A DNA stretch of 64,000 nucleotides from Bradyrhizobium sp. CIAT3101. Lineage in GTDB: Bacteria > Pseudomonadota > Alphaproteobacteria > Rhizobiales > Xanthobacteraceae. The translations under genes were made by a program, and so were the position numbers. Of this stretch, positions 879 through 33,600 are shown in pieces; position 1 is the first letter of the stretch, and every line of letters begins with the position of its first letter. The notes under the pieces are model-generated. The model had not been told where the DNA came from, ran no database searches, and was given only the letters and a program-made list of their open reading frames with translations. The stretch is from NCBI RefSeq assembly GCF_029714945.1, contig NZ_CP121634.1, positions 186,001 to 250,000 of the forward strand, written 5' to 3'.

Positions 879-1802
879 ATGGCCCCCCGCGCCAACTGGA
901 AAGGCTTCCTGCGTTTGTCGCTCGTGACGTGCCCTGTGGCGCTCTATCCGGCCACCTCCGAGTCAGAGAAGATCAGCTTCAACCAGCTCAACCGGCAGAC
1001 CGGCCACCGCATCAAGTATCTCAAGGTCGACGCCGACACGGGCGACGAGGTGCCCAACGAGGACATCGTCAAGGGATACGAGTTGGACAAGGGGCAGTAT
1101 ATCGAGGTCACGAAGGAGGAGCTTGAGGAGCTCACGCTGGAGTCCACGCGCACGATCGAGATCGACGAATTCGTCGACAAGGCCGATATCGACCCGCGGT
1201 ACTTGATCCGCCCGTACTACCTGCGTCCGGACGGAAAGGTGGGCCACGATGCCTTCGCGGTGATCCGCGAGACCATCCGTGAAATGGACAAGGTCGCGAT
1301 CGGCCGGGTGGTGCTGACCAACCGCGAGCACATCATCGCGCTCGAACCGCTGGACAAGGGACTCGTCGGCACGCTGCTCCGCTATCCGTATGAGGTGCGC
1401 GGCGAACAGGAGTATTTCGACGAGATCCAGGACGTCAAAGTGACGAAGGACATGCTCGATCTCGCCAGGCACATCGTGAACCAGAAGGCAGGGCGGTTCG
1501 AGCCCGAGAAGTTCGAGGACCACTACGAGACGGCGCTCATTGACCTGATCAACAAGAAGCGCGCCGGCAAGCCGATCACTCCGAAGGAGCGGCCCGCGGC
1601 GACCAACGTCGTCGACCTGATGGAGGCGCTCCGGCGAAGCGTTGGCCGGGAGGCCGCGCCGGCAAAGGCCGCAAAGCCGGCCAAGAAACCGCGCAAGGCA
1701 TCGAGCGGCCAGAAAGAGATGCTCATGCCGATCGAGGGCAAGAAGCCGAAGGAGACGGCTGCGAAGAAGCCGTCGGCTAAGCCACAGCGGAAGTCAGCCT
1801 GA
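879..1802 (+). CDS. ku: Non-homologous end-joining protein Ku
   Basis: Bacterial Ku forms a homodimeric ring that threads onto DNA double-strand ends and recruits a ligase (usually LigD). The 307-aa product opens with MAPRANWKGFLRLSLVTCPV, the typical bacterial Ku start, and keeps the core beta-barrel landmarks (YLRPDGKVGHDAFAVIR, IALEPLDKGLVGTLL). From about residue 260 it turns into a Lys/Ala/Pro-rich tail typical of rhizobial Ku proteins, which helps DNA binding. No ligD is in the window. The neighbours downstream are decayed, so this copy may be an accessory one; rhizobia often carry several. A compact ATP-dependent ligase is found 8.7 kb away. Confidence 0.95.
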   Translation: MAPRANWKGFLRLSLVTCPVALYPATSESEKISFNQLNRQTGHRIKYLKVDADTGDEVPNEDIVKGYELDKGQYIEVTKEELEELTLESTRTIEIDEFVDKADIDPRYLIRPYYLRPDGKVGHDAFAVIRETIREMDKVAIGRVVLTNREHIIALEPLDKGLVGTLLRYPYEVRGEQEYFDEIQDVKVTKDMLDLARHIVNQKAGRFEPEKFEDHYETALIDLINKKRAGKPITPKERPAATNVVDLMEALRRSVGREAAPAKAAKPAKKPRKASSGQKEMLMPIEGKKPKETAAKKPSAKPQRKSA

Positions 1803-2411: not shown

Positions 2412-4433
2412 CTATGAAAATCCAGGCCGGCCGACCTCACGAAGCGCGCGGGAATTCCGCCACTGCACTTTCACAGCAGCGAGGGTAATGCCCGCGTCAA
2501 TCCGCTCCTGCGCGGCTGCTTCGAGGCGAAGGCGCTCATCAACTATCCGCTTCCGGTACGCGAACTCCTTCATCTCCCAGCCGGAGCAAGCGTCGGCTGT
2601 GGGATCTTCGAGCACGTGAAGCACTTGAAGATCCTCCGATGCAACAGCTTGCGCCTCACTGTCGATCCACCTCGAAAGACCGACCCGCTGGGGCGTCCGC
2701 TTTGGTCCCAGGGGGCGACATTGCATCGCAGGAATTCTCGTTCTGCGGAGAAACACTTGATGCTCGGGCTTAATCGGCATGAGACCGGTGCAAGCGCTTC
2801 GAATCAGCTTGAGATGCCGCTCGAATGACTCGCTCTCATCAACAGCATCGACCGACAGCGCCTCGTGGACAGAAGCGGCGCTCGCGCGGCGACAAAAGAA
2901 CGCTTGTATCCAACCGCTCACGTTCCGCTTACAACTGGGCAAGTGCGCGAAGATCATTGTAACTAGACCACCGTTCTTATCCGTCCGGTGCACATATATT
3001 GTGTGCAACTCCGCATTCGCGTCGACCTTGACCCGGTTTACAAAGATGCGTAGCTCCCGCAAGAAATCCGTTACAACTTGCTCTGGCCTCTTGGCAGGCC
3101 TCGGGACGAAGCTGCCATGCCGGATCTCTATGCGGGTGTTTAGTAGGGCTCCATAGACTTGCACCATAAATGATGCACCATGCCAAAGCTTCTTAGCTTC
3201 ATCCAACGTCAGTGACGTCACCTCAGTTGCCGTCTCCGCTTGAGAGGGTGCGGGCGCCTTCGACTCTCGCGCCTCGGCCGCCCTATAGTCACGGGTGCGC
3301 CGGTCTGCAGCTTGCCAACCTGCGATGGTGACGTCTGGATTTTTCACACCAGGAGCAGCGCTCCGGAAGAGCGCATCGAACTCGCTTGCCTTTCTGAGCA
3401 ATGTTGTTGGTCCAGCGAAAGGTTCTGGATCCCAGATCTGGAGCATGCGGTTTGCGAGCGCACGAGGATGCTGCCGCAGCATATCGGAGTGCCTGCTAAT
3501 GGCCCCTGAGAATTTTGCCTCACGCCCCAGTTGACGAAGACTGGCGAAGCTGACCCCGTGCCGAACGTCAAAGAGCCGACTTAGATACTCCCCAGTTCGC
3601 CGAATCTTCTCACTCTCGGGACACTGCCATCCTTCGAGCAACGACAACTGCTCCTCAAAAGGAGCTCCCTGCGCGACCAGATCAACATAGGCCGCCGCTT
3701 CGCCACTCACATAGTAGTCGAGTATGGCCGACGCGGTTATCTCGCCATTTGCGGACAGAACCTCAAGCGTAAGCCCAAGCTCCACGAAGGAAGACCGACC
3801 GAGATCCGCTAACACCTCCGCACTCTCTGCATCTAGCAGCATTCCTTCCCTGCTGCTGATGCTGTTGACGTACTCGATCGCCTCCAAGAAGCCGGGAGGA
3901 CGAACGGCAAGCGGGTAGAACAATGCGGATGCCTCTCGCGAAATCGCGTCCTTATCGATCGCACATAGAATGAAGGTTACCCGCTCGGATGGCCTCTTCA
4001 TCTGACCGTGCAAGATGTCGAACGCTTGGTTAGACAAGAGTTCCGCCCGGTCGATCAACACCACGAAATGGCCGTTGCCGAACGTCTCTGATCGAACATC
4101 AGCATTGATTCGATCGGCAAATTCCTCGTCGGAGGTCCGGCCATACTCGAAGTGCGCGAGGTTGAGGTGCGTCCCGTACATAAGCGCCGAGCACGAGGGG
4201 CAACTTTCAAGCCGGCATGGCCGCTCGGTTGCAGCCGTACAGAGCAGACCCGCTGCATACACTTCTCCCAAAGATGACTTGCCGCAGCCCATCGGGCCGT
4301 GCAGCAAAACGCTACGCCCGCGGCTCTCCTGGACCTGTGTGGAAAGATATCGTACCGCATCTGCTTTTCCGATGAAGTCACGGAACATGCGTGGGCGGTA
4401 CTTCTCCGAAAGACTCAAGTTGCCGGCAGCCAT
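2412..4433 (-). CDS. DnaX/RFC-like clamp-loader ATPase, divergent, with unknown C-terminal half
   Basis: The 673-aa product begins like a clamp-loader large subunit (LSEKYRPRMFRDFIGKADAV). It has a Walker A at 46-53 (GPMGCGKS) and the DnaX zinc module C65, C73, C78, C81 (PCRLESCPSC). The Walker B region reads VVLIDRAE (124-131), with Arg in place of the catalytic Glu. The SRC arginine-finger motif of DnaX is missing: the matching stretch reads AISREASALFYPLAV. ATP may therefore be bound but poorly hydrolysed, or a partner supplies residues. Residues beyond about 300 match no domain I know. ATG 4433 is preferred over an upstream GTG at 4481, which would overlap the divergent clamp promoter. 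Divergence from two clamp-like genes suggests it loads that clamp. Confidence 0.8.
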   Translation of the reverse strand: MAAGNLSLSEKYRPRMFRDFIGKADAVRYLSTQVQESRGRSVLLHGPMGCGKSSLGEVYAAGLLCTAATERPCRLESCPSCSALMYGTHLNLAHFEYGRTSDEEFADRINADVRSETFGNGHFVVLIDRAELLSNQAFDILHGQMKRPSERVTFILCAIDKDAISREASALFYPLAVRPPGFLEAIEYVNSISSREGMLLDAESAEVLADLGRSSFVELGLTLEVLSANGEITASAILDYYVSGEAAAYVDLVAQGAPFEEQLSLLEGWQCPESEKIRRTGEYLSRLFDVRHGVSFASLRQLGREAKFSGAISRHSDMLRQHPRALANRMLQIWDPEPFAGPTTLLRKASEFDALFRSAAPGVKNPDVTIAGWQAADRRTRDYRAAEARESKAPAPSQAETATEVTSLTLDEAKKLWHGASFMVQVYGALLNTRIEIRHGSFVPRPAKRPEQVVTDFLRELRIFVNRVKVDANAELHTIYVHRTDKNGGLVTMIFAHLPSCKRNVSGWIQAFFCRRASAASVHEALSVDAVDESESFERHLKLIRSACTGLMPIKPEHQVFLRRTRIPAMQCRPLGPKRTPQRVGLSRWIDSEAQAVASEDLQVLHVLEDPTADACSGWEMKEFAYRKRIVDERLRLEAAAQERIDAGITLAAVKVQWRNSRALREVGRPGFS

Positions 4434-4530
4434 CGACGTGCATCTCGCCCGGCATGGCAGTTGAACACTGTTGAGCCACACCGAATCGTCTATATCTTAT
4501 CGGTTCGCGGGAGCATGGACACCGTTTGGA
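4434..4530. promoter_or_regulatory. Divergent promoter region between loader and clamp genes
   Basis: The 97-bp gap between the two chosen start codons is more AT-rich in its middle (TATATCTTAT at 4491-4500), with TTGAAC (4461) and TTGAGC (4471) possible -35 elements for the rightward clamp operon. The fit is weak and no operator repeat is obvious. The short gap implies that the two sides are co-regulated. Confidence 0.3.
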
Positions 4531-5910
4531 ATGAGTGACGACAAACAAGATCTCAACGACTCCGCTGGAGGGCCCTTCAAGGAAGAGCATCGGGAAGGAA
4601 CGCCCATTGATCCCATGGAGAATGTTCACTTCGGTGATCTGGGATCGGAATTCGACGATCTGCTGAAAAACCTCGACGGGGGTGCGAACGCCTCCTTGGA
4701 CGGCGAGTTTGGCACGCTTGGCGCAGACGAAATCCAGCGAGGCGTGAGCGGCCTGACGGAACCCGAGCTGGGCGAAGAGCCACTTGGCCCGGGAGAAGTG
4801 GCATTCGGCGTCAGCGCGGCCGAACTCCAGACCATTCTCAAAGCGCTCACAGCGCTGCTAAAGTTTCAATCCGCAACTCAGCGCCGATGTCGGCTCACCA
4901 TAAGCTCGTCCGGAGTGGCTTGGCATGGCAACACGGGTAACGCATTCATCGAATATGTCACAAGGGGGCGTCCAACCAACTTGGACGCGTCCACCTCTTT
5001 CCCAATCATCGTCTCCCTCGCTGACTTGTATGCCGCAGCTCGAACCGTTCGCCACATCGCGACCTTCCGCATCAAGGAAGGCGCTCTTCGGTTCAGCGCG
5101 GATCGATTCCAGAGGCCGATACTCACGCACTCGATAAAGGGTTACCCCACCCACACAGATACTTTGCGCCGTGGGGTCGAGACCAGCGTTGATCGGCCAC
5201 AAGTGTCCTCGGCTACAATACATAAAGCGTTTTTCTTCCTCTCCAGGATCGCGCCGTCGGAGGAGGCAGCCCCGCACTTCAACTATATCGAGGTCAAGGA
5301 TGCGGTTGCTCGCGCTCTTCGGGTCAGCATGGGGGCTCAGGTTGCTTCGGCTGTATTCGAGGGTCTCAACTTGACCTTCAAACCGCGTTTTCTACGATGG
5401 GTGATCCCAGCGCTGAAGTTGAGAGCTACTTTCCAGATCTGGCACAGTGACAAATTCTGCCTGTTCAGGAATGATGAACTGACGTTCGGCTTCGAGCTGG
5501 CACAGCAGCAATTGCCTAAGCTTCCGGGCACATTCAATTTGTCAGACACCCTCTTGGTGCCAGCGAGCGCGTTCGCGACCTTTGTGCAGCGCGGTGCCCG
5601 GATGTTTCGGGAGAGGGGCAGAGTGATAATTCAATCTGATGAACAAGGCGCTGCGGCTCTCGTTCTCATGGCAGATGATGCTGGTGAAACGCCCCGCAAG
5701 CTTGAAATGTCGTTGGACGGCCACAGAACGGGCACGCACGTGGGCCCTCTTCGGCTTGAAATGCATGTAGAGCCGCTTCTCCGCACCCTATCCATGGGCA
5801 TTTCAAGCGCAAACATTGAAATCGCCATTGGCAGTAAGGCCGTCTACATCGAGGAGCCGCTGGATGACGCACGGCTCTCGGTCGTGATGACGGCGGAGGT
5901 CCAGAGATGA
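4531..5910 (+). CDS. DnaN-like sliding-clamp protein A with acidic N-terminal extension
   Basis: The 459-aa product has an acidic, Gly-rich extension (about 1-88) and then three segments that each follow the DnaN domain plan. Domain I is about 90-207 (FGVSAAELQTILKALTALLK; IIVSLADLYAAARTVRH; ending SIKGYPTH where DnaN has LPAADFP). Domain II is about 222-335 (SATIHKAFFFLSRIAPSEE; FLRWVIPALKLRATFQIW). Domain III is about 340-457 (PASAFATFVQRGARMFRERG; PLLRTLSMGISSANIEIAI; final SVVMTAEV where DnaN has YVVMPMRL). No polymerase gene is nearby. ATG 4531 is preferred; a TTG 60 bp upstream is in frame. It overlaps the next clamp-like gene by ATGA, which implies coupled translation. Confidence 0.75.
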   Translation: MSDDKQDLNDSAGGPFKEEHREGTPIDPMENVHFGDLGSEFDDLLKNLDGGANASLDGEFGTLGADEIQRGVSGLTEPELGEEPLGPGEVAFGVSAAELQTILKALTALLKFQSATQRRCRLTISSSGVAWHGNTGNAFIEYVTRGRPTNLDASTSFPIIVSLADLYAAARTVRHIATFRIKEGALRFSADRFQRPILTHSIKGYPTHTDTLRRGVETSVDRPQVSSATIHKAFFFLSRIAPSEEAAPHFNYIEVKDAVARALRVSMGAQVASAVFEGLNLTFKPRFLRWVIPALKLRATFQIWHSDKFCLFRNDELTFGFELAQQQLPKLPGTFNLSDTLLVPASAFATFVQRGARMFRERGRVIIQSDEQGAAALVLMADDAGETPRKLEMSLDGHRTGTHVGPLRLEMHVEPLLRTLSMGISSANIEIAIGSKAVYIEEPLDDARLSVVMTAEVQR

Positions 5911-7070
5911 CGTCCGAAGAGACAGGTCTAGCTCCGGCAGGCTTGCAACCAGCCAGAACCATCGAATGTGGCGTTGAACTCACGCGGCTGCGTGACGCAT
6001 GGCGCGCAGCATCGACTGTAAGTGGCGATGGCACTTTCACGTTGGCAATCTCTCGCGACTCAATCCGGCTTTTGGCTCAGGGAGAAGTCGCGGTTGAAGC
6101 AACGGTGCCGATCGCGAACACCACAGGCATTACAGTCGGGGAAGAATTTCACCTGAATCTATCGAGCGACAGCCTGGCCGCGCTCGGTCACGGTGATCTC
6201 GATGAAAGCGGCAAACTTTTATTCGGAGAGGTGCAATTAGAGGAAGGTTTCGTCGGCATCTTGAGGCTTCAGACGAGTTTTACGGTTACTTGGCCCTACA
6301 CGCTAACCAAGGTCGGTTCCGTCACTATCGACGATCATGAGGGCCTGGTCCTCCAATCAGTCGACCCACGTACGGTCAGACAGACGCTCGCCGAAATCCG
6401 CAACTTTGCCGGAGACAATGACAGAGCGGGAAACAACCTGAACACTTTGCAGATCTGGGACCAAGAGGCGCTCGGCATGTCGCCCTCTGCGTGCCAGTCG
6501 GTGAAATCGGATCGGTTGACCAGCGTCTGTCTACGCGTGCCGGCCTTCTGCGCCAAGGTATTAGGTGTCTTGCTCACGCAGTTGAAATCGTCCGAGACCC
6601 AGCTTGGCGTCTCCGGCGAGAAATGCGTGCTCCTCGACGGCCGGCTCAAAATAATTGCGCCGATGGCTCCGCCTTTGCCGAGTTGGCCAGACAACGGCCC
6701 GGCGACGGCTCAGTTTCAGCTCGATGTCACAGATTTCACCGCTGCTGTCGCAGCAATTGTCTGGCAAGCGCCCAGAGATAATCCAATCATCACTTTCGGC
6801 GTCGGAATGGACGCACGGGCTCTTACCCTTAGCACTGCCGTGCCGGGCGGCATGGCTATGGCTTCATGTCCTATCGCTTCAGCAAACCGCGTACAGCCGG
6901 CAGAGGTCTCGCTTCGATTCGGCGCGTCGACCTTGTCGAGCTTCTCAACACGCAACAATGATGCCGTTCAATTCCGAGTCTTCGAACGGTTTGTGGAAAT
7001 CGAGCAAGTTTCACCTGGTGAGCGGCGGAGAACGCTTTTGGCGGTGGAACGAGCGCGAAGCTATTCGTAG
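5907..7070 (+). CDS. DnaN-like sliding-clamp protein B
   Basis: The 387-aa product is a diverged second clamp-like protein. Three repeats can be traced: about 15-130 (CGVELTRLRDAWRAASTV), about 132-262 (SVDPRTVRQTLAEIRNF; VPAFCAKVLGVLLTQLKSS) and about 268-385 (LDVTDFTAAVAAIVWQAP; AEVSLRFGASTLSSFSTR). Each has the helix-then-strand order seen in DnaN. The C-terminus (ARSYS) lacks the canonical DnaN ending, and the protein is less like DnaN than its neighbour, so this call is weaker. The ATG overlaps the stop of clamp A (ATGA), so the two are made together, which fits a heterodimeric ring. Ordinary DnaN is a homodimer. Confidence 0.62.
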   Translation: MTSEETGLAPAGLQPARTIECGVELTRLRDAWRAASTVSGDGTFTLAISRDSIRLLAQGEVAVEATVPIANTTGITVGEEFHLNLSSDSLAALGHGDLDESGKLLFGEVQLEEGFVGILRLQTSFTVTWPYTLTKVGSVTIDDHEGLVLQSVDPRTVRQTLAEIRNFAGDNDRAGNNLNTLQIWDQEALGMSPSACQSVKSDRLTSVCLRVPAFCAKVLGVLLTQLKSSETQLGVSGEKCVLLDGRLKIIAPMAPPLPSWPDNGPATAQFQLDVTDFTAAVAAIVWQAPRDNPIITFGVGMDARALTLSTAVPGGMAMASCPIASANRVQPAEVSLRFGASTLSSFSTRNNDAVQFRVFERFVEIEQVSPGERRRTLLAVERARSYS

Positions 7071-7745
7071 CTTGCGCCGGGTTGACCGGTCCTGATCGTT
7101 CGCGTTGTTTGAATTTCTCCCGGCTACGCAGCAGCAATCCCGTCCGTCAGCGGACTGTCCCATTGCATCAATCAGGATCGCTCTGACCCCGTGGCAATCA
7201 TTGTTTCAACATTATCCGCGGTCGCTGGAGTTCGTCACAACGACGAACAAGCATAGCCAGCCCCTTATGGGCTCCGCGACTTCCGGCTAGCCAGGCTAGG
7301 AAGAATTAGCGGATCGCAAGCCGAAAGGCATCGGCAGAAGCTGACAGTTTCAAAGCTGGAAGCAGGAGCAGGCTCCGGTGACTCCCGACCTGCAGCAGTT
7401 GCGCAATTGATGGATGTGTTGCGCAATAGCCCCGCCAGACGAAGCGGCGCAACAAAGGCCGACCGGCTGACCCCGGCCTACCCTACTTAAGCAGGGTGCG
7501 CTTATCCAAAGACTGACCGACGGCGTGGCTCCGGGTTTCGGACACTCTATCGACAGCAGCTTCGCCTCCGCGCAGGCGAAGCTATGCCCTTCGGGCACAG
7601 AACCTCCCTCCGACGTTCACCAGGTTTCGGGAACGCGCCCCTCACAACTTCCCCTCCTTCCCTTCCTTCTCTCTCCCCATCCCGCACCGGCGTCCAGGTC
7701 GCGCGATCGCAACGGACGATATGCTCATTCGAGAGGAGAACTGCG
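7071..7745 (+). other. 675-bp non-coding stretch with structured and pyrimidine-rich segments
   Basis: No convincing gene is seen here. From about 7260 on, the DNA contains several short inverted repeats, including ACCCT/AGGGT around 7482-7498 and the two perfect tandem hairpins at 7558-7597. A C/T-rich run follows (about 7637-7680), and then the ribosome site of the 7746 gene. It could be a long 5' leader, a small structured RNA, or decayed sequence. I see no reverse transcriptase that would make it a retron. Confidence 0.4.
7558..7597 (+). ncRNA. Tandem perfect hairpins, candidate structured RNA
   Basis: Positions 7558-7567 and 7574-7583 form a perfect 10-bp stem (AGCTTCGCCT/AGGCGAAGCT) with a 6-base loop. 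Two bases later, 7585-7589 and 7593-7597 form a 5-bp stem TGCCC/GGGCA with a TTC loop. There is no U-run after them, so they are not ordinary terminators. They lie about 150 bp upstream of the gene at 7746. The call as an RNA is inference; it could also be a palindromic repeat element. Confidence 0.35.
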
Positions 7746-8258
7746 ATGATCGTGGGAGACGAATACCGCCGCTTGGAAAAGCGTCTCAACAACGCGCTGC
7801 TCAGCGGAAAGGCGAACCCTCGCGAGTCCATCTTCCTTCATAAGATCTCTACCCGAATTTCAGAATACGGAAAGAATGCCCGCCTTACGGACAGGCAAGC
7901 CTCATACTTGATGAGCATCCTCGATCGCCTCAGCCCGGCGAAAGCGCGAACAACAGCTTCAACGGCTCTTAAACCCGACGCCGACTCCAATCGCGGCGAG
8001 CCTAACAGTATGTCGATGGCCCAGGCCCCTGAGGCAAAATTGCCTGCTACCTCACCGGCGCTACCTTCTGAACGCGACGAGGCAATCCCACCCGACTCCA
8101 ACTTTTTCGTTCCACCTCCGTCCAACGAAGCCACGTTCTCCCAACTTCGCGCGGAAGATATACAAGTCCCAAAGGACTGGATTTCGAAAGCCTTGGCCAG
8201 GGCTGCGGCCCGCCGCGAACACGAAGAACTACTCAAGAAATTAGGCCGTCGACTCTGA
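7746..8258 (+). CDS. Hypothetical 170-aa charged protein
   Basis: No family is recognised. The N-terminal 60 residues look helical and charged (EYRRLEKRLNNALLSGK; LTDRQASYLMSILDRL). A Pro/Ala/Ser-rich linker of about 60 residues follows, and then a helical C-terminus (WISKALARAAARREHEELLK). The two-helix plus linker layout suggests an adaptor or DNA/protein-binding role, but this is a guess. The ATG at 7746 is chosen because GAGAGGAGAA lies just before it; a longer frame from 7584 would run through the hairpins and pyrimidine tract. It lies between the clamp operon and the nuclease gene on the same strand. Confidence 0.6.
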   Translation: MIVGDEYRRLEKRLNNALLSGKANPRESIFLHKISTRISEYGKNARLTDRQASYLMSILDRLSPAKARTTASTALKPDADSNRGEPNSMSMAQAPEAKLPATSPALPSERDEAIPPDSNFFVPPPSNEATFSQLRAEDIQVPKDWISKALARAAARREHEELLKKLGRRL

Positions 8259-8397
8259 TCCTAGATACTCCGGGATCCACATTCATTGGAACTCGGCTAA
8301 CCTGTTCGTCACCAGCATCTCGGCGTCAGGGTCAACTCATTAGCCGCTTCGCAGAATCTCTCTCGCCACAACGGCCCACAATAAAGAGAGAGACACC

Positions 8398-9591
8398 TTG
8401 ACCAACGCAGATCCAACGATCCCGCCTCATGCTTCATCTGGTACTCGTGGGCGGAAATCGAGATTTCAGCAGCTTGCGCGCACGCCATGGATACCCGAAC
8501 GCTTGCTCGCGCAGTTTGGGGGAGCGTGCGAGATTGATTCCCGGTTCCGGCGAGCGGCGCGCATGCTCCAGATATTGTGGATGCGCGACAACGATATCCC
8601 GAACGCGTTGGCCAACGGCGAGCCCGGATCGCATCTTGCTTCATATCTCCGTGCGGATGCTGCCGAGGAGGGGAAGAACTTCCTCACTCCGGACATTCAC
8701 CTCCTCGCTTTGAGGGACCTTCTGCTTCTCAGGGAAGAAGATGCGGCGGTCGATGAAGACCGACTCCTGATGAACAGCGTTTCGTCGATGCCCGCAACCC
8801 TGAATTGTCTTGGCCCATTGGCGTTGAATCTCAAACTTGCCGGCCGAGTGTTCAAACAACTCCTTCCAAACTTCGTTCAATCCGTGGACCGGATCATTTT
8901 CGAACATTCACCAGGCCGCCGAAGCGAAAAATATCTGAGCGATCGATCGGCGTTTGATGCAGCAGTGTTCGTAAAGACTCCCGATCAAGACAAGGGCGTA
9001 ATCTACCTTGAGTTGAAGTACACGGAAAGCTTGGATCATACCACAAAGCCGTGGAAACCCAGGCAGCTCGAAGCCCTCCGTGAGGTCGCTCTCTACAAAG
9101 ACCCAGATAGTCCAATCCTCCACTCCGGACCCTGCGAGCAGCTCACTCGCGAACACATGACCGCCCAGTTGGCAGTCCGAAATGGCGCGGTGCCCAGAGC
9201 CTGCTTCGTCGGGATTGGCCCAAGCCTAAACCGGCGTGTCCAAGCAGCTTTCCGCGTCTACGCGAACGAGCTCCTCCCGCTGGATCCTGCTGACGGATCC
9301 CAGGTGCCGTTCCATCACTTCACGCTCGAGGCTTTGATCGATGCGATTGATGTCGCCGGCGACAGGGACACGGCCGATCGCCTCTGGCAGCGCTACTGCA
9401 ACTTCCAGCGCATCTATGATGCGGCTCTTAACGTTCTGGCGCCGAGGCTCAGTTCAGACGTCGCGGCGGGCGGGTCGCAGGCGGCGTCATACGAGGACAG
9501 AGCAGACGGCGCCGGAAAGCGAGCCGTGCGAATCGACAAGGGCAATACCGACCCGGTTGTTGCCGCACCTGGGGCCAGCCGCCATGATTGA
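8398..9591 (+). CDS. PD-(D/E)XK superfamily nuclease (PGN_0703-like)
   Basis: The 397-aa product carries a PD-(D/E)XK-type core. It has an early acidic residue E169 (IFEHSPGR), D187 in SDRSAFDAAVF, and E205-x-K207 in IYLELKYTE, spaced as in restriction-like endonucleases. The pattern resembles the PGN_0703 family of putative restriction endonucleases. The start is probably TTG 8398 behind AAAGAGAGAGA. Its 3' end overlaps the DUF2958 gene (ATGATTGA), so the two are co-translated. It follows the clamp genes on the same strand, and a nuclease recruited by a clamp is one possible role. DNA cleavage is expected for the fold but not shown. Confidence 0.72.
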   Translation: MTNADPTIPPHASSGTRGRKSRFQQLARTPWIPERLLAQFGGACEIDSRFRRAARMLQILWMRDNDIPNALANGEPGSHLASYLRADAAEEGKNFLTPDIHLLALRDLLLLREEDAAVDEDRLLMNSVSSMPATLNCLGPLALNLKLAGRVFKQLLPNFVQSVDRIIFEHSPGRRSEKYLSDRSAFDAAVFVKTPDQDKGVIYLELKYTESLDHTTKPWKPRQLEALREVALYKDPDSPILHSGPCEQLTREHMTAQLAVRNGAVPRACFVGIGPSLNRRVQAAFRVYANELLPLDPADGSQVPFHHFTLEALIDAIDVAGDRDTADRLWQRYCNFQRIYDAALNVLAPRLSSDVAAGGSQAASYEDRADGAGKRAVRIDKGNTDPVVAAPGASRHD

Positions 9592-9925
9592 CACTGATCT
9601 GCTCACGGTCGAAGACCGCGTTCGGCTCTTGGTCAACGCTTTGGCTGACGACCAAGATCCAGTGCCTGTTGCCAAGCTTTTCACGCCTGACGCAGGCGCA
9701 ACTTGGTTGCTTGTGCAATGTGACCCCGATGAGCCGGACCGAATCCTCGCCCTGTGTGACCTTGCTCTTGGACATCCCGAGCTCGGTTGGGTCCATCTGG
9801 CCGAAATCAGGGAAGTTAGAGGCCGCCTAGGCCTCCCCGTGGAACGGGACCTTCATTTCACCGCGGACAAGCCGATCTCGGCATACGCGGCGGAAGCCCG
9901 AGCCAAGGGCCGCATCGTTGCGTAA
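9584..9925 (+). CDS. DUF2958 family protein
   Basis: The 113-aa protein matches the DUF2958 pattern: an early LAVKF-like segment (VPVAKLFTPDAGATWLLVQ), a middle LCDLALGHPELGWVHLAEI, and the conserved GLPVERDLHF near the C-terminus. The function of DUF2958 is unknown; it is common on plasmids and integrative elements. The start ATG 9584 lies inside the end of the nuclease gene, and the stop overlaps the next small gene, so three genes form one tight unit. Confidence 0.8.
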   Translation: MIDTDLLTVEDRVRLLVNALADDQDPVPVAKLFTPDAGATWLLVQCDPDEPDRILALCDLALGHPELGWVHLAEIREVRGRLGLPVERDLHFTADKPISAYAAEARAKGRIVA

Positions 9926-10136
9926 GAAGCGAAAGCACTGCGAACATCAGTGGGACCACGAGTCCCACTGCCAACCTGCCTTCATCAACAGCTACACGTG
10001 CGTAAGCTGCGGCACCGCGTGGGAGGACGCGTGGTCCTGCGGTTGCGATGACGAGTGTCCGAACTGCGGAGTAGATGCGTCACCGATTGACAGCCAGCAA
10101 GTCGCCCCTTGTGCTTGTGACTACCTCGGACACTGA
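9918..10136 (+). CDS. Cys-rich zinc-ribbon-like mini-protein (72 aa)
   Basis: The protein has nine Cys residues in CxxC and CxC arrangements (YTCVSCGTAW, SCGCDDECPNCG, APCACDYLGH) and an N-terminal CEHQWDH. This fits one or two zinc ribbons. The TTG start at 9918 overlaps the end of the DUF2958 gene by eight bases. Small zinc-ribbon genes often accompany DUF2958 on mobile elements. The role is unknown. Confidence 0.7.
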   Translation: MRKKRKHCEHQWDHESHCQPAFINSYTCVSCGTAWEDAWSCGCDDECPNCGVDASPIDSQQVAPCACDYLGH

Positions 10137-10533
10137 GACCGAAGACGCGCCCCGACCGAATGCCCGCACGTGCTCGTCCGCTATGAATCGCATTCAGGAC
10201 CACAAGCGGAGAGTTTGATCATTCGCTCCACCAACCACGCAAAAAAATGCAACTGCGAACCCGCACGAAACGGCTATATTTTCTTGCCCCCACCCACCGC
10301 CATCCACCTCCGCCCACCTACCTTCCCCTACCCCCTCCCAACCTTACCTTCCCAACCCGATCTCCCTGCCCTTACGCCACAGCTACATTGGGAAGCTCAA
10401 GAAGGACGGCGCTATTTCCGGCAAATGGCCCAGACCGGCGCGGTGCAACTTCTCCCTCATAGATGGGCTGCGCGAACGCAACATAACGACCCCGCAGCCG
10501 AATTCGCGAGAACCACTATCTGCGTGAGGAACG
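10137..10533 (+). other. 397-bp gap with C-rich tract and small coding remnant
   Basis: This gap holds the C-rich tract described separately (10272-10380). After it, one frame reads SYIGKLKKDGAISGKWPRP through to TGA at 10525-10527 without a clear start. It may be the end of a lost gene upstream of the ligase. Nothing else is seen. Confidence 0.35.
10272..10380 (+). repeat. C-rich tract, copy 1
   Basis: A TATATTTTCTTGCCCCCACC head is followed by about 95 bases made almost only of C, T and A with repeated CCACC/CCCACC units. The opposite strand is G-run-rich and could form G-quadruplex-like structures. A second tract with nearly the same head lies at 11312-11440, so the tract and the ligase behind it appear to have been duplicated together. 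Confidence 0.6.
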
Positions 10534-11232
10534 ATGACTGCCCCGGAGATCAGCAATCCACGTTCGTGGAACGGAATGGCTCTGGCCGGCGACTGGGCGG
10601 TGTCATTGAAACTAGATGGAGTTCGCGCAATCTGGGGCGAGGACGGTTGGGTCAGCAGAGCGAACAAGCCTTTGCATAACCTGCCGCCGTGGCGAGATGG
10701 CCAACCGAGAGATTGCGAGGTCTTCGTCAACAATTTCCGCGACACGATTCGAGCCACCCGTACCAAGTGCCTCAAACGAGACACGCCGCCGATCACGCGA
10801 CAGCACCTCTACGGTCTCGCCCCGCTCGATCCACGCCTTCATTGGGGCACCTTAACGAACCCCGCTCCCGCGGACATTCGGGCCATGTTAGGCCGCGCCA
10901 ACGCTTTAAACTACGAGGGCATCGTCCTGCGTCAGGGCGAACACTGGATTAAGGTGAAAGCGACGGAAACGCACGATGTCCTCATCACCTCGGTCTCAGA
11001 GGGGACGGGCAAACACCGCGGCCGGCTAGGCTTCGTCACAACAGCCAGGGGTGCCGTGGGCGCGGGCTTTACGGACAGCGAGCGCGAAATCCTGTGGGCT
11101 GAAGCCAACGCCGGGCGACTGGTCGGCCAAGTCATCGAAGTCACCTGCATGCAGCTGACGGACCACGGCAACTTTCGCCATCCGGTCTTCATCCGCATGC
11201 GCCCCGACAAGTTGATTGATGGTACTGCTTGA
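10534..11232 (+). CDS. Compact ATP-dependent DNA ligase
   Basis: DNA ligases seal nicks through a lysyl-AMP intermediate. This 232-aa protein has motif I KLDGVR with nucleophile K26, a shortened motif III region (CEVFVNNF, E62), motif IV YEGIVLR (E128) and motif V WIKVKA (K140, K142). An OB-fold of the bacterial ligase type starts near 150 (GTGKHRGRLG; VIEVTCMQLTDHGNFRHP). It is as small as the Lig E/phage-like class and has no nuclease or primase domain. The start ATG 10534 follows GTGAGGA. It could act with the island's clamp or Ku, but this is inference. A decayed second copy follows at about 11463. Confidence 0.82.
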   Translation: MTAPEISNPRSWNGMALAGDWAVSLKLDGVRAIWGEDGWVSRANKPLHNLPPWRDGQPRDCEVFVNNFRDTIRATRTKCLKRDTPPITRQHLYGLAPLDPRLHWGTLTNPAPADIRAMLGRANALNYEGIVLRQGEHWIKVKATETHDVLITSVSEGTGKHRGRLGFVTTARGAVGAGFTDSEREILWAEANAGRLVGQVIEVTCMQLTDHGNFRHPVFIRMRPDKLIDGTA

Positions 11233-11311
11233 TCGGTGACGGTCCGACGCCCGCGACCGTTTCGCTATGACCATTGGGCAAAAAATCAGCGGCACGAGGT
11301 GCTGTCAAATC

Positions 11312-11440
11312 GGTATATTTTTTGCCCCCACCGCCACCTACCGTCACCCACCCTCCCACCCACCGCCATTCACCCTCACCTTGATCGCCGCCGCCCACCC
11401 GCACCACCAACACTTACCTCCCTCTCCACGCCACTTTCAG
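11312..11440 (+). repeat. C-rich tract, copy 2
   Basis: It starts with GGTATATTTTTTGCCCCCAC and continues as a C/A/T tract with CCACC, CCCACC and CGCC units, matching copy 1 in head, length and base use. An A-run (GCAAAAAA) lies 30-35 bases before both heads, a further sign that the two are copies of one region. It precedes the decayed ligase. Confidence 0.55.
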
Positions 11441-11462
11441 ATAGCGCTAGTGAGCAAGGATG

Positions 11463-11735
11463 GCGCGGCTCTCCTCGATTCACGCCTTCGTTGGAGCACC
11501 GGCCCAAATTCTAGCCCCGCGGCCAAGTGCCCAGAGGCCGTGTCCTTGGTCAAGACCGGCAAGCGGGCAAGATCATGCGGTTTCGATCTTCGACCTCCTC
11601 ATCACCAATCGCAAGCAAAAGGGGGGACTAAGCCTCGCCCCAACGACGGCGGGAGCCAGCTCTACAGACGATTGCATAAGAGCCTAGGCGTTGATGCGCC
11701 ACGCCGTTTTCATCCGAATGTGCCCCGACAAAAGC
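11463..11735 (+). pseudogene. Decayed second copy of the DNA ligase gene
   Basis: Several blocks match the intact ligase at the DNA level in the same order. CTCGATTCACGCCTTCGTTG (11472-11491) corresponds to the ligase around 10828. A CTCCTCATCACC block (about 11597) corresponds to 10979. CATCCGAATGTGCCCCGACA (11711-11730) corresponds to the ligase end near 11190. Stretches between the blocks are missing and no frame stays open, so this is an internally deleted pseudogene from a tandem duplication. Confidence 0.7.
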
Positions 11736-11819
11736 TACGGCTTTGACTCCAAGGATGCGGGCCCGAGCGTAGGTTGCCATTTCATGCTCGCGCAACAAAG
11801 AACATAGGAGAGGAGTTTT

Positions 11820-11864
11820 ATGACACTTGGAAATCGCGGTAGAATTCATCTTACAATTCACTAG
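11820..11864 (+). CDS. 14-codon upstream ORF (possible leader peptide)
   Basis: AGGAGAGGAG followed by TTTT gives a strong ribosome site directly before ATG 11820, which encodes MTLGNRGRIHLTIH and a stop at 11862-11864. The next gene starts 15 bases later. The ribosome site is far better than that of the downstream gene, so coupled translation or a leader role is possible. It may also be a chance ORF. Confidence 0.35.
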   Translation: MTLGNRGRIHLTIH

Positions 11865-11878
11865 GGAAAGTTGATCGA

Positions 11879-12118
11879 ATGCCCAAGAAACGAATAAGAA
11901 AAGCCGGAACGAGTGATTTATCGCGCGCGGCCAAAAAGTGGCACAAAGAAGTCACACGCTACTTGGAGCGACGGATGAATGTAGCGGAGGACCGAGAGGA
12001 CGATATTGAGATGAGCTATTTGTACACCTGCCAATTGGCGCTCGCTATTTGTGAACAACTTGGCATCGGTTTGGAGCAACCAGATTTAGGGGTGATGACG
12101 CCCTCTTCTCACGCCTGA
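11879..12118 (+). CDS. Hypothetical 79-aa basic protein
   Basis: The protein starts with a basic MPKKRIRKAG segment and has a helical middle with charged residues (KKWHKEVTRYLERRMN; YLYTCQLALAICEQLG). No family is recognised. The gap before it holds a short ORF with a strong ribosome site. Codon use and AT content are like the island. It ends about 150 bp before the hairpin at 12271. Confidence 0.5.
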   Translation: MPKKRIRKAGTSDLSRAAKKWHKEVTRYLERRMNVAEDREDDIEMSYLYTCQLALAICEQLGIGLEQPDLGVMTPSSHA

Positions 12119-12270
12119 TAGCCTCCTCGAGGGCTCGCAAGATCCCTTTGCGCTGAATGAAACACAAATACGCTTCGTGCGAATCTTCCCAGAGCAGCGA
12201 CGAGGGGTACCGGCACGTGAGGGACTCAGAAAACGTGGCGTAGCCTGATGACTCGCAAGGTGCGAAGCTT

Positions 12271-12294
12271 AAAGAGCCCCGAAAGGGGCTCTTT
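12271..12294. terminator. Perfect hairpin with GAAA tetraloop between convergent genes
   Basis: AAAGAGCCCC (12271-12280) pairs fully with GGGGCTCTTT (12285-12294) around a GAAA tetraloop. The A/T ends give a short U-run in either direction. It lies between the plus-strand 79-aa gene and the minus-strand XRE gene, as expected for a bidirectional terminator. Confidence 0.8.
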
Positions 12295-12305
12295 CCATAA
12301 GAAGA

Positions 12306-12536
12306 CTACTTTTTCCGCGCTTTCTTGGGGGGCGGCTTCAGAAACTCGGCAGCCTCGACGTCCAGTACCTTTGCCAGCTTTCCGATTATTTCCAGGCCTA
12401 CGAACGTCCCACCCTTTTCCAGCTTGCTCATATACGTTCGATTCACGCCGGCCTCATAGGCCAAATCCTCTTGGGACAGTCCTTTGGCGTGCCGAAAGTG
12501 GCGCAGGTTCGCTGCAAAGACTTGGCGGAGGTCCAT
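12306..12536 (-). CDS. XRE-family HTH transcriptional regulator
   Basis: The 76-aa protein is nearly all one Cro/C1-type helix-turn-helix: VFAANLRHFRHAKGLSQEDL, then the recognition helix in NRTYMSKLEKGGTFVG, then IIGKLAKVLDVEAAEFL. A basic tail ends it (KKARKK). It is divergent from the membrane and signalling cluster starting at 12671 and may control it. The ligand and operator are unknown. Confidence 0.85.
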   Translation of the reverse strand: MDLRQVFAANLRHFRHAKGLSQEDLAYEAGVNRTYMSKLEKGGTFVGLEIIGKLAKVLDVEAAEFLKPPPKKARKK

Positions 12537-12670
12537 GCCTCAGCCAATCAAGGCACCGCTTATTAACCCACCGCTTTAAACAGACAAAATTCTGGACTTG
12601 GTGCCGATAGAAACATTACAACCCGACAACCGAACCTAGATTGCGCAGCGGGCTAACACTGGGGGCCAAT

Positions 12671-13243
12671 TTGACCAATACAGTCGCAAGCGACGAAGAG
12701 TGGTTTTATGCACAGGGCGGCCAACGCAAAGGCCCTGTACCCACAGGCACGCTACGCGAACTCCTGGCGACCCAGGCAATCGACGGAGAGACCCAAATCT
12801 GGCGTAAGGGCTTGGCTAACTGGCAACCGCTGCGCACAACGGAAATCGGGACACAGCTCAAGGATATCCCACCACCCATCGCCGCGAGCCATGTGAACAA
12901 CGGTTTGGTGTGGGCGCTCGCCTTCGCGCCGCTCGCCTATCTTTTCGTTGATGTCGCGCTGCTTAACTACCAAAACAGTCATCCGGCAGGTGACGAGTTT
13001 TTCGAGGCATTTCTATCACCGCTCAGTTGGCTCGTTCCGGTGCTGACGAATGCGGTGCTGTGCCTAGTCGACACAGAACAGCTCAAGCGTGCCGGCTACA
13101 GCTCCGGGTGGCTGACGCTCTTCGCGCTACTATTGGCACCGGTCTATCTTTTCGTACGCGCGCAACGCCTGGGCCAGACGCCGACTTATGGTTTCGTTTG
13201 GATCGCCACGTTCATCGTATCGATCATTTTACGGGCAGCGTGA
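12671..13243 (+). CDS. GYF_2 (DUF4339) domain membrane protein
   Basis: The N-terminal part (about 10-55) is a GYF_2/DUF4339 domain: EEWFYAQGGQRKGPVPTGTL, then IWRKGLANWQPL. Such domains bind proline-rich peptides. Several hydrophobic helices follow (WALAFAPLAYLFVDVALL; LTLFALLLAPVYLFV; FVWIATFIVSIIL), so it sits in the membrane. TTG 12671 is chosen because GGGGG precedes it; an upstream TTG at 12641 is possible. The stop at 13243 is directly followed by the GTG of the next gene. Confidence 0.75.
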   Translation: MTNTVASDEEWFYAQGGQRKGPVPTGTLRELLATQAIDGETQIWRKGLANWQPLRTTEIGTQLKDIPPPIAASHVNNGLVWALAFAPLAYLFVDVALLNYQNSHPAGDEFFEAFLSPLSWLVPVLTNAVLCLVDTEQLKRAGYSSGWLTLFALLLAPVYLFVRAQRLGQTPTYGFVWIATFIVSIILRAA

Positions 13244-13244
13244 C

Positions 13245-13676
13245 GTGCAAACAGATTCACATACAGACGACCTGATTTTCCTGGCCATATTTTTCCTCAC
13301 TATCGGCATCGTCTACATCGCACCGAGCATCGTGGCATTCCGGCGTAACCATCCAAACCGTTGGATCATCCTTGTCATCAACGTCGTCTTCGGGGGCACG
13401 ATCCTCGGCTGGGGGATTGCGATGGTTTGGGCGATGCGAGCGGCTCACCGCATAGGCGCTGTGAGCAGCGGCGGAGAGTCCGGCCTCAACCTGTTCGTTA
13501 ACGACGTGAGAAGGATTCAGATCGTGGATCCACCACCATTGCCGCAGACGTCCACCGCCCAAGAGCTGGAGCGCCTTCACGATCTCCTCGTCCGGGGAGC
13601 GATCTCCCAGGTCGAATTCGACAGCCTCAAGGCCAAACTGCTTGGCGCCGCCCCTCACATTGAGAAAGAACAATGA
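13245..13676 (+). CDS. Superinfection-immunity-type membrane protein with SHOCT domain
   Basis: The 143-aa product has two membrane helices matching the Imm_superinfect family (IGIVYIAPSIVAFRRNHPNR and INVVFGGTILGWGIAMVWAM; the family includes T4 Imm, which blocks DNA entry). A C-terminal SHOCT motif follows (ELERLHDLLVRGAISQVEF, ending KLL). Chromosomal members of this family are common and need not act in immunity. The GTG at 13245 comes one base after the stop of the GYF gene and is in frame, so the two are coupled. The next gene overlaps by ATGA. Confidence 0.8.
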   Translation: MQTDSHTDDLIFLAIFFLTIGIVYIAPSIVAFRRNHPNRWIILVINVVFGGTILGWGIAMVWAMRAAHRIGAVSSGGESGLNLFVNDVRRIQIVDPPPLPQTSTAQELERLHDLLVRGAISQVEFDSLKAKLLGAAPHIEKEQ

Positions 13677-14266
13677 AATTGCGACTGACTATCGTGGTTG
13701 CGCTTCTGCTCTCGGCCTTTCGAATCGGATATCTCAACGCGGAGGAACTCTCCTTCTATGAAAAGGAGACAGATAAGTGGTGGACAGTTTTCGGCGGAGC
13801 AAACGCGGAGACCGGGCAAGCCACTTGTTACGGTCGCGCGAACAAGAGGGACGGATCGTTCATTCAAATCCATCGCTCCCTCGTTGACGGTGAGGTCTGG
13901 GCCATCGTCCACGACACCGAATGGGAAATTCAAGGACCTGACCGAGGCCAGCTTCGCTGGAATTTCTTCAACGGTCTCAAGAACGGTCTCATCGCAGGTG
14001 CAAACTTCGACTATGTCCTCAAGGACAAGAACACGATCTTGATGCTGCAAATCGAGCCCAAGAACTTCTCGGAGGCGCTATGGAATGCCCGTTACTTCAC
14101 TCTTGTGATGCCCGGGAACGTTCCAAACATGTCGCTCAGTTTCGAGAACAAGGGCAGTTCGATGCTTTCATCGCTTGTAGAGTGCGTCAAACAGAACGAG
14201 ACGAAATACAAGAACTTCAAGCCGTCCCCGGAAAAAGTTCCGGACTCGGTGAAGGAACAGCTCTGA
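13673..14266 (+). CDS. Exported hypothetical protein (197 aa)
   Basis: A signal peptide is visible (MKLRLTIVVALLLSAFRIGY, cleavage near NAEE at about 23). The mature part has alternating strands and a late Cys pair that is far apart (TCYGRA and VECVKQ), possibly a disulfide. No family is recognised. It overlaps the superinfection-type gene by ATGA and so belongs to the same operon. Confidence 0.65.
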   Translation: MKLRLTIVVALLLSAFRIGYLNAEELSFYEKETDKWWTVFGGANAETGQATCYGRANKRDGSFIQIHRSLVDGEVWAIVHDTEWEIQGPDRGQLRWNFFNGLKNGLIAGANFDYVLKDKNTILMLQIEPKNFSEALWNARYFTLVMPGNVPNMSLSFENKGSSMLSSLVECVKQNETKYKNFKPSPEKVPDSVKEQL

Positions 14267-14366
14267 GGCCGCTTGCGCGTGCACCGGTTACGGCAATGGC
14301 CGGAAGTAGCTCAATGTGTCACACACCAGCGAAGCTGCCCACAATAGATCGAGCGAGTGTCTGAGT

Positions 14367-15128
14367 ATGCCGGGCTGGACCGTTGCTGCTTTCACCCATC
14401 GTGGTCGTGTGCGCCCGAACAACGAGGACGCTATCGCGATCGACAACCGTGTCCTCATCGGCGACATGGACGCGCCGATAGTCGTGACGTCACCGAATGA
14501 TTGCCGCCTCCTAATGATCGCGGATGGGATGGGTGGCCACGCGCACGGCGCGATGGCCAGCCGAGCGGTCCTCGATCATCTGGTCGCTGCGATCGATCGG
14601 CTTTCAAATCCCGCCTCTTGCGCCGAAGTGATCGAGGAAGCCAGTCAACACCTTTATGAACTCATGCAGGAGCACCCGGAAGCACTCGGCATGGGCTCCA
14701 CCCTCGTTGGAGCCGTCCTGAAGGTCGACCAGCTAGTCACATTCAACATTGGCGACAGCCGCAGCTACCTCTTCAGCGGAAACCAATTGGTGCAGCTCAG
14801 CCACGATGATGTACCCGAAGGCGAGAGCAGCCACTTCGGTCCCCGCCGGTCCCATGCCCTCACTCAGGCGCTGGGCGGCTCTTCGTTTCCGTTGTCGATC
14901 GGACCGCACGTCACCGTTGATGCGCCGCTCGCACCCCGCGAGACCTTACTTCTCTGCAGCGACGGCCTCACCGACATGGTCAGCGGCCAAGCGATCAGCG
15001 ACACGTTGAGAACAGCCAAGAACCCTCTTCAGGCCACGAAGAGACTCGCCGCCATGGCATTTAGCGCCGGAGCACGAGACAACATCTCCTTGTTGGTCGC
15101 ACGCTGCCTGGACGCGCCTGAATCGTAG
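14367..15128 (+). CDS. PP2C-family Ser/Thr protein phosphatase
   Basis: PPM/PP2C enzymes remove phosphate from Ser/Thr using two metal ions. The 253-aa protein shows the family signs in order: GRVRPNNEDAIAID near the start, MIADGMGGHAHGAMAS (metal-binding Asp and GG), FNIGDSRSYLF, LLLCSDGLTDMV and ARDNISLLVARC. The length is that of the stand-alone bacterial form. ATG 14367 is chosen; an in-frame GTG upstream would add residues with no PP2C match. No Ser/Thr kinase gene is in the cluster, so the substrate is unknown. Confidence 0.9.
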   Translation: MPGWTVAAFTHRGRVRPNNEDAIAIDNRVLIGDMDAPIVVTSPNDCRLLMIADGMGGHAHGAMASRAVLDHLVAAIDRLSNPASCAEVIEEASQHLYELMQEHPEALGMGSTLVGAVLKVDQLVTFNIGDSRSYLFSGNQLVQLSHDDVPEGESSHFGPRRSHALTQALGGSSFPLSIGPHVTVDAPLAPRETLLLCSDGLTDMVSGQAISDTLRTAKNPLQATKRLAAMAFSAGARDNISLLVARCLDAPES

Positions 15129-15144
15129 CGAAAGGAATCACCGG

Positions 15145-15684
15145 ATGGGGTTAGGATATCTTTTCAAGATCGGCTCCGTTGTTGCGACCTGCGCCGCCAT
15201 CAACTGCGCGAGCAGTCGCGCAGAGGTCATCGTGTACAAAGAAGCTTGCGGGCATGACGCATTTGAAAACTGGAACCTGACATGCAAGATCGAAAGGAAC
15301 ACCTTCACCGCTGACCCCAGCGATTACCGGTCTGCCGCATTCAAGGACATCCGATCGATAACGATCTGCGCTTCGTTCAACAACGGTGGCGGATTGAACG
15401 TCCCCGCAACCATCGTTCACAACTACGGCGACGGCAGGCAGTCCAAACCAACAGAGCTCTTCGACACCGTAAGGTTTGAGGGTGGTTTGACGACCCACAG
15501 AGTGTCCTGGGCGGGAACAAATCCGAGGCTCGTTCCGGCAGGGACCCCGGCGTGGAGCATGCGAGCCGATCTGCTCCAAACTGGCCGCCAGAATTCGTTC
15601 ACTTACACGGAGACCCTCCTGAACGGCCAACGGCCAATCGGAGAGATACGGGCCTCATGCAGCTTTCTTGAGGACGACAAATGA
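15145..15684 (+). CDS. Exported hypothetical protein (179 aa)
   Basis: The N-terminus looks like a signal peptide (MGLGYLFKIGSVVATCAAIN, cleavage near SSRAEV). The mature region has four or more Cys (ACGHDAF, LTCKIE, ITICASF, RASCSF), consistent with disulfides in the periplasm. No family is recognised. It starts 16 bp after the PP2C gene, with GAAAGGAA before the ATG, and its stop overlaps the ATG of the following broken gene. Confidence 0.6.
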   Translation: MGLGYLFKIGSVVATCAAINCASSRAEVIVYKEACGHDAFENWNLTCKIERNTFTADPSDYRSAAFKDIRSITICASFNNGGGLNVPATIVHNYGDGRQSKPTELFDTVRFEGGLTTHRVSWAGTNPRLVPAGTPAWSMRADLLQTGRQNSFTYTETLLNGQRPIGEIRASCSFLEDDK

Positions 15685-15997
15685 TCGGCTGTGCACTTAG
15701 AGGGATGCGATCCTGGGTTTGAGTCCTGCCGTGCTCGGCGGACTTAGCTCCGAACAGTCGTTTGCCGCAAACGTCTATCTTCACAAAGGCGAGGGCGGAA
15801 CGGGCATCGACGCCGAGTTGCAGCTCGGTGAGGCGGATCAGTTCAATTTGGCCCTGATTGGCTTCCGAAACGTCGGTGCCTCACAGCAAGTCCAGCTCGG
15901 TCTGTTTATTGGGGGAGATAACCGCGGTTTCGGCCCGCTGAATGCGTCCAAAACTGTCGCACCGACCCGATACATAAGTTCCACCAGGAGCTTGTGA
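15681..15997 (+). pseudogene. Small exported protein split by a frameshift
   Basis: ATG 15681 overlaps the stop of the previous gene (ATGA) and reads MIGCALRGMRSWV before TGA at 15720-15722. The next frame from 15719 continues with LSPAVLGGLSSEQSFAANVY and stays open to 15997. Joined, the two make a normal signal peptide plus a 70-residue mature part. One inserted or deleted base near 15718 explains this. If the read is correct, the gene is broken unless the TTG at 15719 is used. I saw no slippery heptamer in the right frame. Confidence 0.45.
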
Positions 15998-17058
15998 TGA
16001 AGAACACTATCGAACTTGATACCTCGGCTCCATCCGAAAGGCCGCCCGGTTTTCTGCTCGAACCGTTCAAATGGGCAATCCCGACTCTTATAGCCATGCT
16101 TCGGGACCAGCCTGAATATTTGTCAGATTTGGTCCACCTCAGCCGAACCCGGATGCATCTGATCGGAACGGCCCTCGCACACGTCGAGGCTAAGCCGAGT
16201 TCGGAGTTGGCGAGGGTGCTTTTTCGAGGATCCGCGGAAATAATTCTGGATGCGACCGTCGGTCACCAGCCATCGGGCCTTAAGCGTGCAGTGAGCGTCA
16301 TGCCGAGTTTCCTGATGGAAGCCGAAAGCTACCGCGGGCTTGTAAAGCTTCTTGCTGAGCCGGATGCAGCGCGGCTGATCTTTCACACGTTCGAGATCCG
16401 TGATTCGACGATTAGAGCAATGAATGATGTTCCGGCGCCGCTACGCCGGGTCGTTTTCCCGATGCATGAGAATATCGGAGACATGAGCTCTTTCTCGAGA
16501 GGGCTACGGTGCATCTCTTTGCGTAGCGGCAGGCTAAGCTTCGATCAGCTTGTCTCTGAGCTGGCACGTGCCCGTCAACCCAACCAGCTGCTCGCAAAAC
16601 TAAAGTCTATTGTCGAAAGCTTGCCACTGCCGGACGCTCTGCCGCCAGCTCGCGTGGAGTACGCGGAGCGCATCGATTCCGGACGTCAGCTACGGGCCCT
16701 TGGAAAAAAGTGGGGCAACTGCTTGGAAGGCTACGTCTGGAACGTAGAGCATGGACAGTGTGCGATTTACCTCTGGCGTGATGCTGGCTTGCGAGCTGCC
16801 TGCTCCGTCACCCGAAGCGGTCGTCTCGGTTGGTTTCTGGACGAGATTAAAGGCCCCGAGAACGCCGATCTCGAGCCTCAAGACCACGATAAGATCCTCA
16901 GCGCGTTCGAGGCTGTCCAAATTCCTTCTGCGGCAGTTATCAGTTCGATCGCGCAGATCGTTGCGAACGACAATCTGAATTGGAGGCCCCGACCGCGACA
17001 CCGGCGGATCAGAGGCGCTCCTCCGCCGGTCGACATGTCGTTGCCGGATCTTGTGTGA
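15997..17058 (+). CDS. PcfJ-like protein
   Basis: The 353-aa protein has a C-terminal block typical of PcfJ-like proteins of plasmids and integrative elements: KKWGNCLEGYVWNVEHGQCA, then IYLWRD, then GWFLDEIKGPENADL. The N-terminal 200 residues are helical and unassigned. The function of PcfJ-like proteins is unknown. ATG 15997 is chosen because AGGAG lies 6 bases before it; a GTG three bases upstream also exists. The gene starts where the broken small gene ends. Confidence 0.6.
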   Translation: MKNTIELDTSAPSERPPGFLLEPFKWAIPTLIAMLRDQPEYLSDLVHLSRTRMHLIGTALAHVEAKPSSELARVLFRGSAEIILDATVGHQPSGLKRAVSVMPSFLMEAESYRGLVKLLAEPDAARLIFHTFEIRDSTIRAMNDVPAPLRRVVFPMHENIGDMSSFSRGLRCISLRSGRLSFDQLVSELARARQPNQLLAKLKSIVESLPLPDALPPARVEYAERIDSGRQLRALGKKWGNCLEGYVWNVEHGQCAIYLWRDAGLRAACSVTRSGRLGWFLDEIKGPENADLEPQDHDKILSAFEAVQIPSAAVISSIAQIVANDNLNWRPRPRHRRIRGAPPPVDMSLPDLV

Positions 17059-17122
17059 GCCCGCTTGGCGAATCCTGTACCCCCGTAATATTCTTCTCGC
17101 CGGGAAGGGGTCGGGGACAAGA

Positions 17123-18106: not shown

Positions 18107-18123
18107 CCACCGATCAAGCTAGC

Positions 18124-18804: not shown

Positions 18805-18822
18805 CGTAAGATCTTGCCCCTT

Positions 18823-31085: not shown

Positions 31086-31096
31086 CGCTTCCCCCT

Positions 31097-33598: not shown

Positions 33599-33600
33599 GT

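Follow-up and report, generated by a model that had tools for sequence, protein, structure and literature searches.

Sliding clamps and clamp loaders are known in bacteria as housekeeping proteins. Phage T4 is a case of mobile DNA with its own loader (gp44/62) and clamp (gp45), and it also encodes a polymerase, a helicase and a primase. Papillomavirus E1 and polyomavirus large T carry an inactivated HUH domain. PMC6668415 attributes to such domains a structural or origin-binding role in papilloma- and polyomavirus initiators. The module reported here, located on a mobile island of the soil bacterium Bradyrhizobium sp. CIAT3101, resembles each of these systems in part. Like T4 it has loader-type and clamp proteins of its own, but none of polymerase, helicase and primase is seen in the window's module. 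Its clamps differ from the DnaN (beta) clamp in being two co-encoded paralogues, one of them with an acidic, disordered-looking tail. Its AAA+ protein is related to DnaX (gamma/tau) by a zinc module, a Walker A motif and an above-threshold family match; it lacks the Walker B DE and the SR arginine finger and bears a C-terminal Rep-like domain. This C-terminal third is homologous to stand-alone Rep-like proteins found beside the same nuclease, yet differs from HUH replication initiators (Rep, PF23343-like) in having neither catalytic motif and in its fusion to a clamp-loader AAA+. The inactivated HUH domain of E1 and large T is fused to an SF3 helicase, whereas here the partner is a clamp-loader-type AAA+ accompanied by clamps and a nuclease, making the likeness an analogy and not membership. 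The nuclease shares its family match with PDDEXK_13 (PF20796) and is set apart by its association with genes for Rep, loader and clamps. A literature search covering few subscription journals and no preprints turned up nothing that describes the module or this association. What lacks a description there is the combination; taken singly, the parts are members of known folds or families or resemble them.

The window is the whole stretch of DNA analysed, 64,000 nucleotides of contig NZ_CP121634.1. Its features are collected in Table 1.

Table 1. Features of the module and of its surroundings in the window.
Feature	Position	Strand	Remarks
Ku protein	879-1802		left flank
AAA+-REP protein, 673 aa	2412..4433	(-)	N-terminal AAA+ of DnaX type, zinc module included (residues about 1-300); C-terminal Rep-like domain, apparently degenerate HUH-Rep (about 395-650); tail RPGFS
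Clamp A	4531..5910	(+)	acidic low-confidence N-terminal tail (1-72), DnaN fold (about 88-458)
Clamp B	5907..7070	(+)	acidic, DnaN fold; ATGA overlap with clamp A gene
Cluster c9 small protein	7746..8258	(+)	start inferred from relatives; also adjoins some other nuclease loci
PDDEXK_13 nuclease	8398..9591	(+)	PF20796 E 4.7e-76, PF22558 E 4.4e-17
DUF2958 protein	9584..9925	(+)	directly 3' of nuclease; start inferred; cluster c2 profile match 5e-64
Cluster c12 small cysteine-rich, zinc-ribbon-like protein	9831..10133	(+)	open frame
ATP-dependent DNA-ligase-like protein	10534..11232	(+)	PF14743 2e-7, PF04679 1.3e-6
Cassette	12611-15681		GYF_2 membrane protein, Imm_superinfect/SHOCT protein, secreted-looking protein, PP2C phosphatase
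AddB-/AddA-resembling adjacent pair	20021-26058		PDDEXK_1; UvrD + PDDEXK_1
BREX cluster	29007-42294		brxL, pglZ, pglX, brxC
391-aa gene	37571-38746		between pglX and brxC; best PADLOC match HEC-02A
Integrase	44127-45740

An earlier note, made by reading the sequence, had taken the first gene of the module for a DnaX-like ATPase with zinc module and Walker A. Both elements are found, PF13177 (DnaX/delta-prime AAA+) matches the protein at 39.2 bits (cut-off 27), and DNA polymerase III gamma (1njf_A) matches it with E 4.3e-13. The Walker B motif reads LIDRAEL and not DExx, and DE is likewise missing in all 11 of the database relatives whose sequence extends over Walker B.

Profile-profile comparison of the loader C-terminus with the stand-alone Reps gives a probability of 99.4 and E 1e-21, unrelated pairs of the same run reaching 1.7 at most. 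GxHxH and YxxK are kept in 9/9 stand-alone Reps and in 0/17 distinct loader-type loci, window included (18 rows, as L104 repeats L002). The best Pfam match for six of the nine stand-alone Reps is PF23343 REP_ORF2-G2P, with E 9.4e-6 to 0.0071, all under the curated cut-off; Pfam gives no Rep match for the three others nor for two fused pieces examined, and the REP profile has no significant match in the PDB. The Rep assignment is based on these motifs together with the weak family matches, and the loader C-terminal domain looks like a homologue of HUH-Rep-like proteins with the catalytic motifs lost.

The two overlapping genes on the other strand had been read as encoding proteins of DnaN plan, and structure prediction gave the DnaN fold for both. 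Structural comparison also finds the three-domain clamp fold in clamp A and clamp B, at about 8-16% identity to DnaN in the structural alignments listed. Neither clamp has a DnaN family match in Pfam or NCBIfam, and either one alone attains a probability of 3.5 at most against a DnaN profile built from 21 of 30 sequences (nine dropped as longer than 392 aa). The combined profile of A, B and the single clamps of other loci aligns to it with probability 79 and E 1.6e-5, one domain out of register, five control profiles staying at or below 0.2. Against the PDB the clamp profile has no significant match, its second-best being DnaN with E 0.4. NCBIfam also gives no match for ten further proteins, including the VapE-like protein and two single clamps found at other loci. 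The core pI in the window is 9.7 for clamp A and 5.0 for clamp B, and the sequences make a heterodimeric A-B ring plausible. Elsewhere the genome carries the dnaN of the host and two further genes that match PF13177. With the host copies at other sites, and with no DnaN family model matched by either clamp, an ordinary second dnaN/dnaX pair was rejected.

The nuclease scores 256 bits with PF20796 (cut-off 27). Its D..ExK pattern is FD...ELK, with FD at residue 186 and ELK at 205. Pfam DUF2958 is matched by the L042 copy of the following protein (8.4e-39). The GYF_2-to-PP2C cassette recurs 3' of the nuclease in several loci. At L043 a cluster of DUF499, DUF3780, DUF1156 methyltransferase and PLD-helicase genes (10943-20000) directly follows the nuclease and DUF2958 genes, and L050 has clusters homologous to its DUF499/DUF1156/helicase set.

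We scanned 38 loci (35 fetched neighbourhoods, the window, L002 and L003) and obtained a nuclease match in 36; L095 and L096, fetched for weak PF20796 matches, match no module profile. The Rep-type domain is present at 27 of the 36 nuclease loci (26 distinct, L104 being a repeat of L002), always with the Rep and nuclease genes on opposite strands (27/27). Nine loci are without a REP gene (L037, L038, L093, L098, L099, L101, L103, L105, L106), several of them short contigs or holding a fragment only. Within the genus, 28 of 265 genomes have the nuclease and 24 of 265 the REP domain, the latter all with the nuclease too (24/24; P 2.6e-30 with genomes treated as independent, which they are not). 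Rep match and nuclease fall on different contigs in G501 and G632, and four nuclease genomes have no REP match (G457, G639, G528, G448). The nuclease is further found in 7/297 genomes across the order, where the genus accounts for two, in 4/398 genomes of the phylum including the same two, in 2/72,556 plasmid records and in 1/50,697 phage records. On plasmid p546-4 of Roseomonas haemaphysalidis (L110) the nuclease gene is accompanied, at a distance of about 6 kb, by a Rep relative that is not annotated.

Clamp genes number 7 and come from 5 of 257 genomes, every one inside a Rep/nuclease module. Clamp A is found in the window's genome only among 397 genomes of the order, and it has no relative in the viral or genome contigs scanned nor in the phage and plasmid collections; clamp B was not found in plasmids. 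The AAA-REP loader has no relative in the viral contigs scanned, and in the phage and plasmid collections it gives partial, DnaX-type matches only (35 records), as does the L049 loader (127 records). A phage- or plasmid-borne module was discarded on these grounds, clamp A being missing from both collections and clamp B from plasmids, and the loader matches being partial and DnaX-type. Scanning genome contigs with the loader alignment yielded two diverged relatives, L002 and L003, whose clamp A is 22-24% identical to that of the window in one comparison. Gene order at both is that of the window, from the loader through the two clamps and a small gene to the nuclease. The small gene is here of cluster c11, that of the window of c9, and no ligase-like gene was found at either locus. 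In L003, from a metagenome-assembled genome, clamp B occupies two separate frames (7409-8559) and the loader (9893-12025) has its Walker A lysine replaced, which may reflect decay or an assembly error.

The 26 distinct Rep+nuclease loci fall into four groups. Nine loci have a stand-alone Rep. Six combine AAA-REP with clamps, one in L034, L039 and L051 and two in the window, L002 and L003. Four others associate AAA-REP with a delta'-like AAA+ and a protein without assigned family, and the remaining seven have a VapE-like helicase, AAA-REP and a fused unknown-delta'-like protein (L041, helicase at 4159-5664, L046, L049, L053, L092, L097, L102). The AAA+ and REP parts of L053 are in separate frames. 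The delta'-like AAA+ is thus present at 11 of 26 loci; it has no DE and keeps the SR finger in 11/11. The unassigned protein of the loader operons had been suspected by eye to be the delta subunit (HolA), an identity that profile comparison does not support (HolA probability 0.4 or less). From the sequences, the four architectures suggest that a nicking initiator is being replaced by loader-based machinery, with loss of the nicking site.

All 14 AAA-REP proteins outside the two-clamp group are gamma-like: they retain Walker A, the DE of Walker B and the arginine finger SR, as well as a C-terminal WxxW that is missing in the stand-alone Reps and is possibly a partner-binding tail. The three two-clamp loci have neither DE, replaced by DR or DQ, nor the SR finger nor WxxW (0/3 against 14/14 for each), and all three proteins end in PG[FL]-type tails. 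Gain of the second ring and loss of loader chemistry go together across loci, though the number of two-clamp loci is small (n=3). The earlier note had described a "dedicated loader", a description that does not suit a two-clamp AAA+ protein devoid of Walker B glutamate and arginine finger and ending in a Rep-like domain without catalytic motifs. Other parts of its interpretation are supported: besides the DnaX-like protein and the DnaN folds, loader and both clamps co-occur in other genomes (L002, L003), no polymerase is seen in the module, the island holds BREX, and the effector partner it supposed has a conserved candidate in the nuclease. The missing residues mean that the two-clamp AAA+ would need partners. 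It could join or poison the host gamma/delta/delta' complex as an accessory loader, the A/B ring replacing or blocking the host beta clamp, and the host does have the dnaN and PF13177 genes mentioned above. We hold this improbable, as it leaves the nuclease link and the dead Rep domain unexplained.

The right edge of the island falls at a tRNA-Leu gene, and similarity to a genome labelled as the same species starts at 45804; that genome has no nuclease or Rep match. No left-side copy of the tRNA 3' end is found at up to 5 mismatches of 22. Ku, encoded at the left flank, also lies within the fetched stretch of L039, L040 and L100, pointing to a common site of insertion. The module could repair breaks at the island, working with Ku and with the ligase-like protein, which 10 of the 36 nuclease loci have. 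This appears very improbable: at 22 of the 26 REP+nuclease loci the fetched flanks contain no Ku, and Ku may do no more than mark an insertion site.

Defence is a more serious reading, possible if not the one we favour. The AAA+-dead-Rep protein would recognise replicating or nicked foreign DNA and deposit the A-B ring, which would deliver the PDDEXK_13 nuclease. The nuclease is indeed the constant part, its catalytic pattern kept in the window, L002 and L003, while the recognition side varies, with four architectures and a clamp A that shares only 12-14% identity with the single clamps and 21-24% with clamp A of L002 and L003. The spread across the genus is patchy, down to absence from the genome labelled as the same species, and the neighbours include BREX in the window and the L043-type clusters. 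BREX may, however, be mere cargo of the same element, and a helicase, a loader and a ligase-like protein are uncommon as defence components. PADLOC (PADLOC-DB 2.0.0) gives no credible match for five module proteins; there are two weak ones of the loader to IetA, the better with E 0.0066 and the other with E 0.042.

A set made up of helicase, loader, clamp, ligase-like protein and Rep resembles mobile-element replication or DNA processing at least as closely as defence. We favour the hypothesis, to which we give close to an even chance, that the module performs DNA replication or processing for the mobile island, built on an initiator without nicking activity. It is supported by the Rep homology, the Rep-nuclease linkage, the confinement of clamps to these modules, the VapE-like helicase, the delta'-like AAA+ and the integrases, a c5-type integrase lying within the fetched flanks of 7 of 26 Rep+nuclease loci. 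It is weakened by the near-absence from plasmid and phage records, unlike ordinary replication modules, by a constant nuclease and BREX-type neighbours that suit defence too, and by the distance of about 33 kb between the end of the window's module and the integrase. The lack of HolA relation of the loader-operon protein, the nuclease genomes without REP match (4/28), and the stand-alone Reps (3/9) and two fused pieces without Pfam Rep match weigh in the same direction.

Under this replication or processing hypothesis, the dead Rep domain would now only bind DNA, at an origin or at a nicked or branched structure, a role proposed from the parallel with the papilloma- and polyomavirus initiators. 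The AAA+ part would place or hold a ring at the bound DNA, an A-B heterodimer in the two-clamp variant, whose AAA+ protein could bind ATP and serve as a wrench or adaptor, perhaps alongside the gamma/delta/delta' loader of the host. The nuclease, and perhaps also the ligase-like protein, would be tethered by this ring, and the host would supply the polymerase.

At these loci much of the clamp and loader toolkit, gamma-like and delta'-like ATPases and DnaN-type rings, is found in a family of islands, with fusion to a Rep-like domain and linkage to a single nuclease. Loss of the nicking site parallels the inactivated HUH domains of the viral initiators. We consider it rather unlikely that the dead initiator, fused to a loader ATPase, marks chosen DNA with its own heterodimeric DnaN-type ring, which would carry the nuclease along this DNA in immunity or in competition between mobile elements. 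If so, a sliding clamp would serve targeting and not processivity, a use of clamps that the module makes a testable question.
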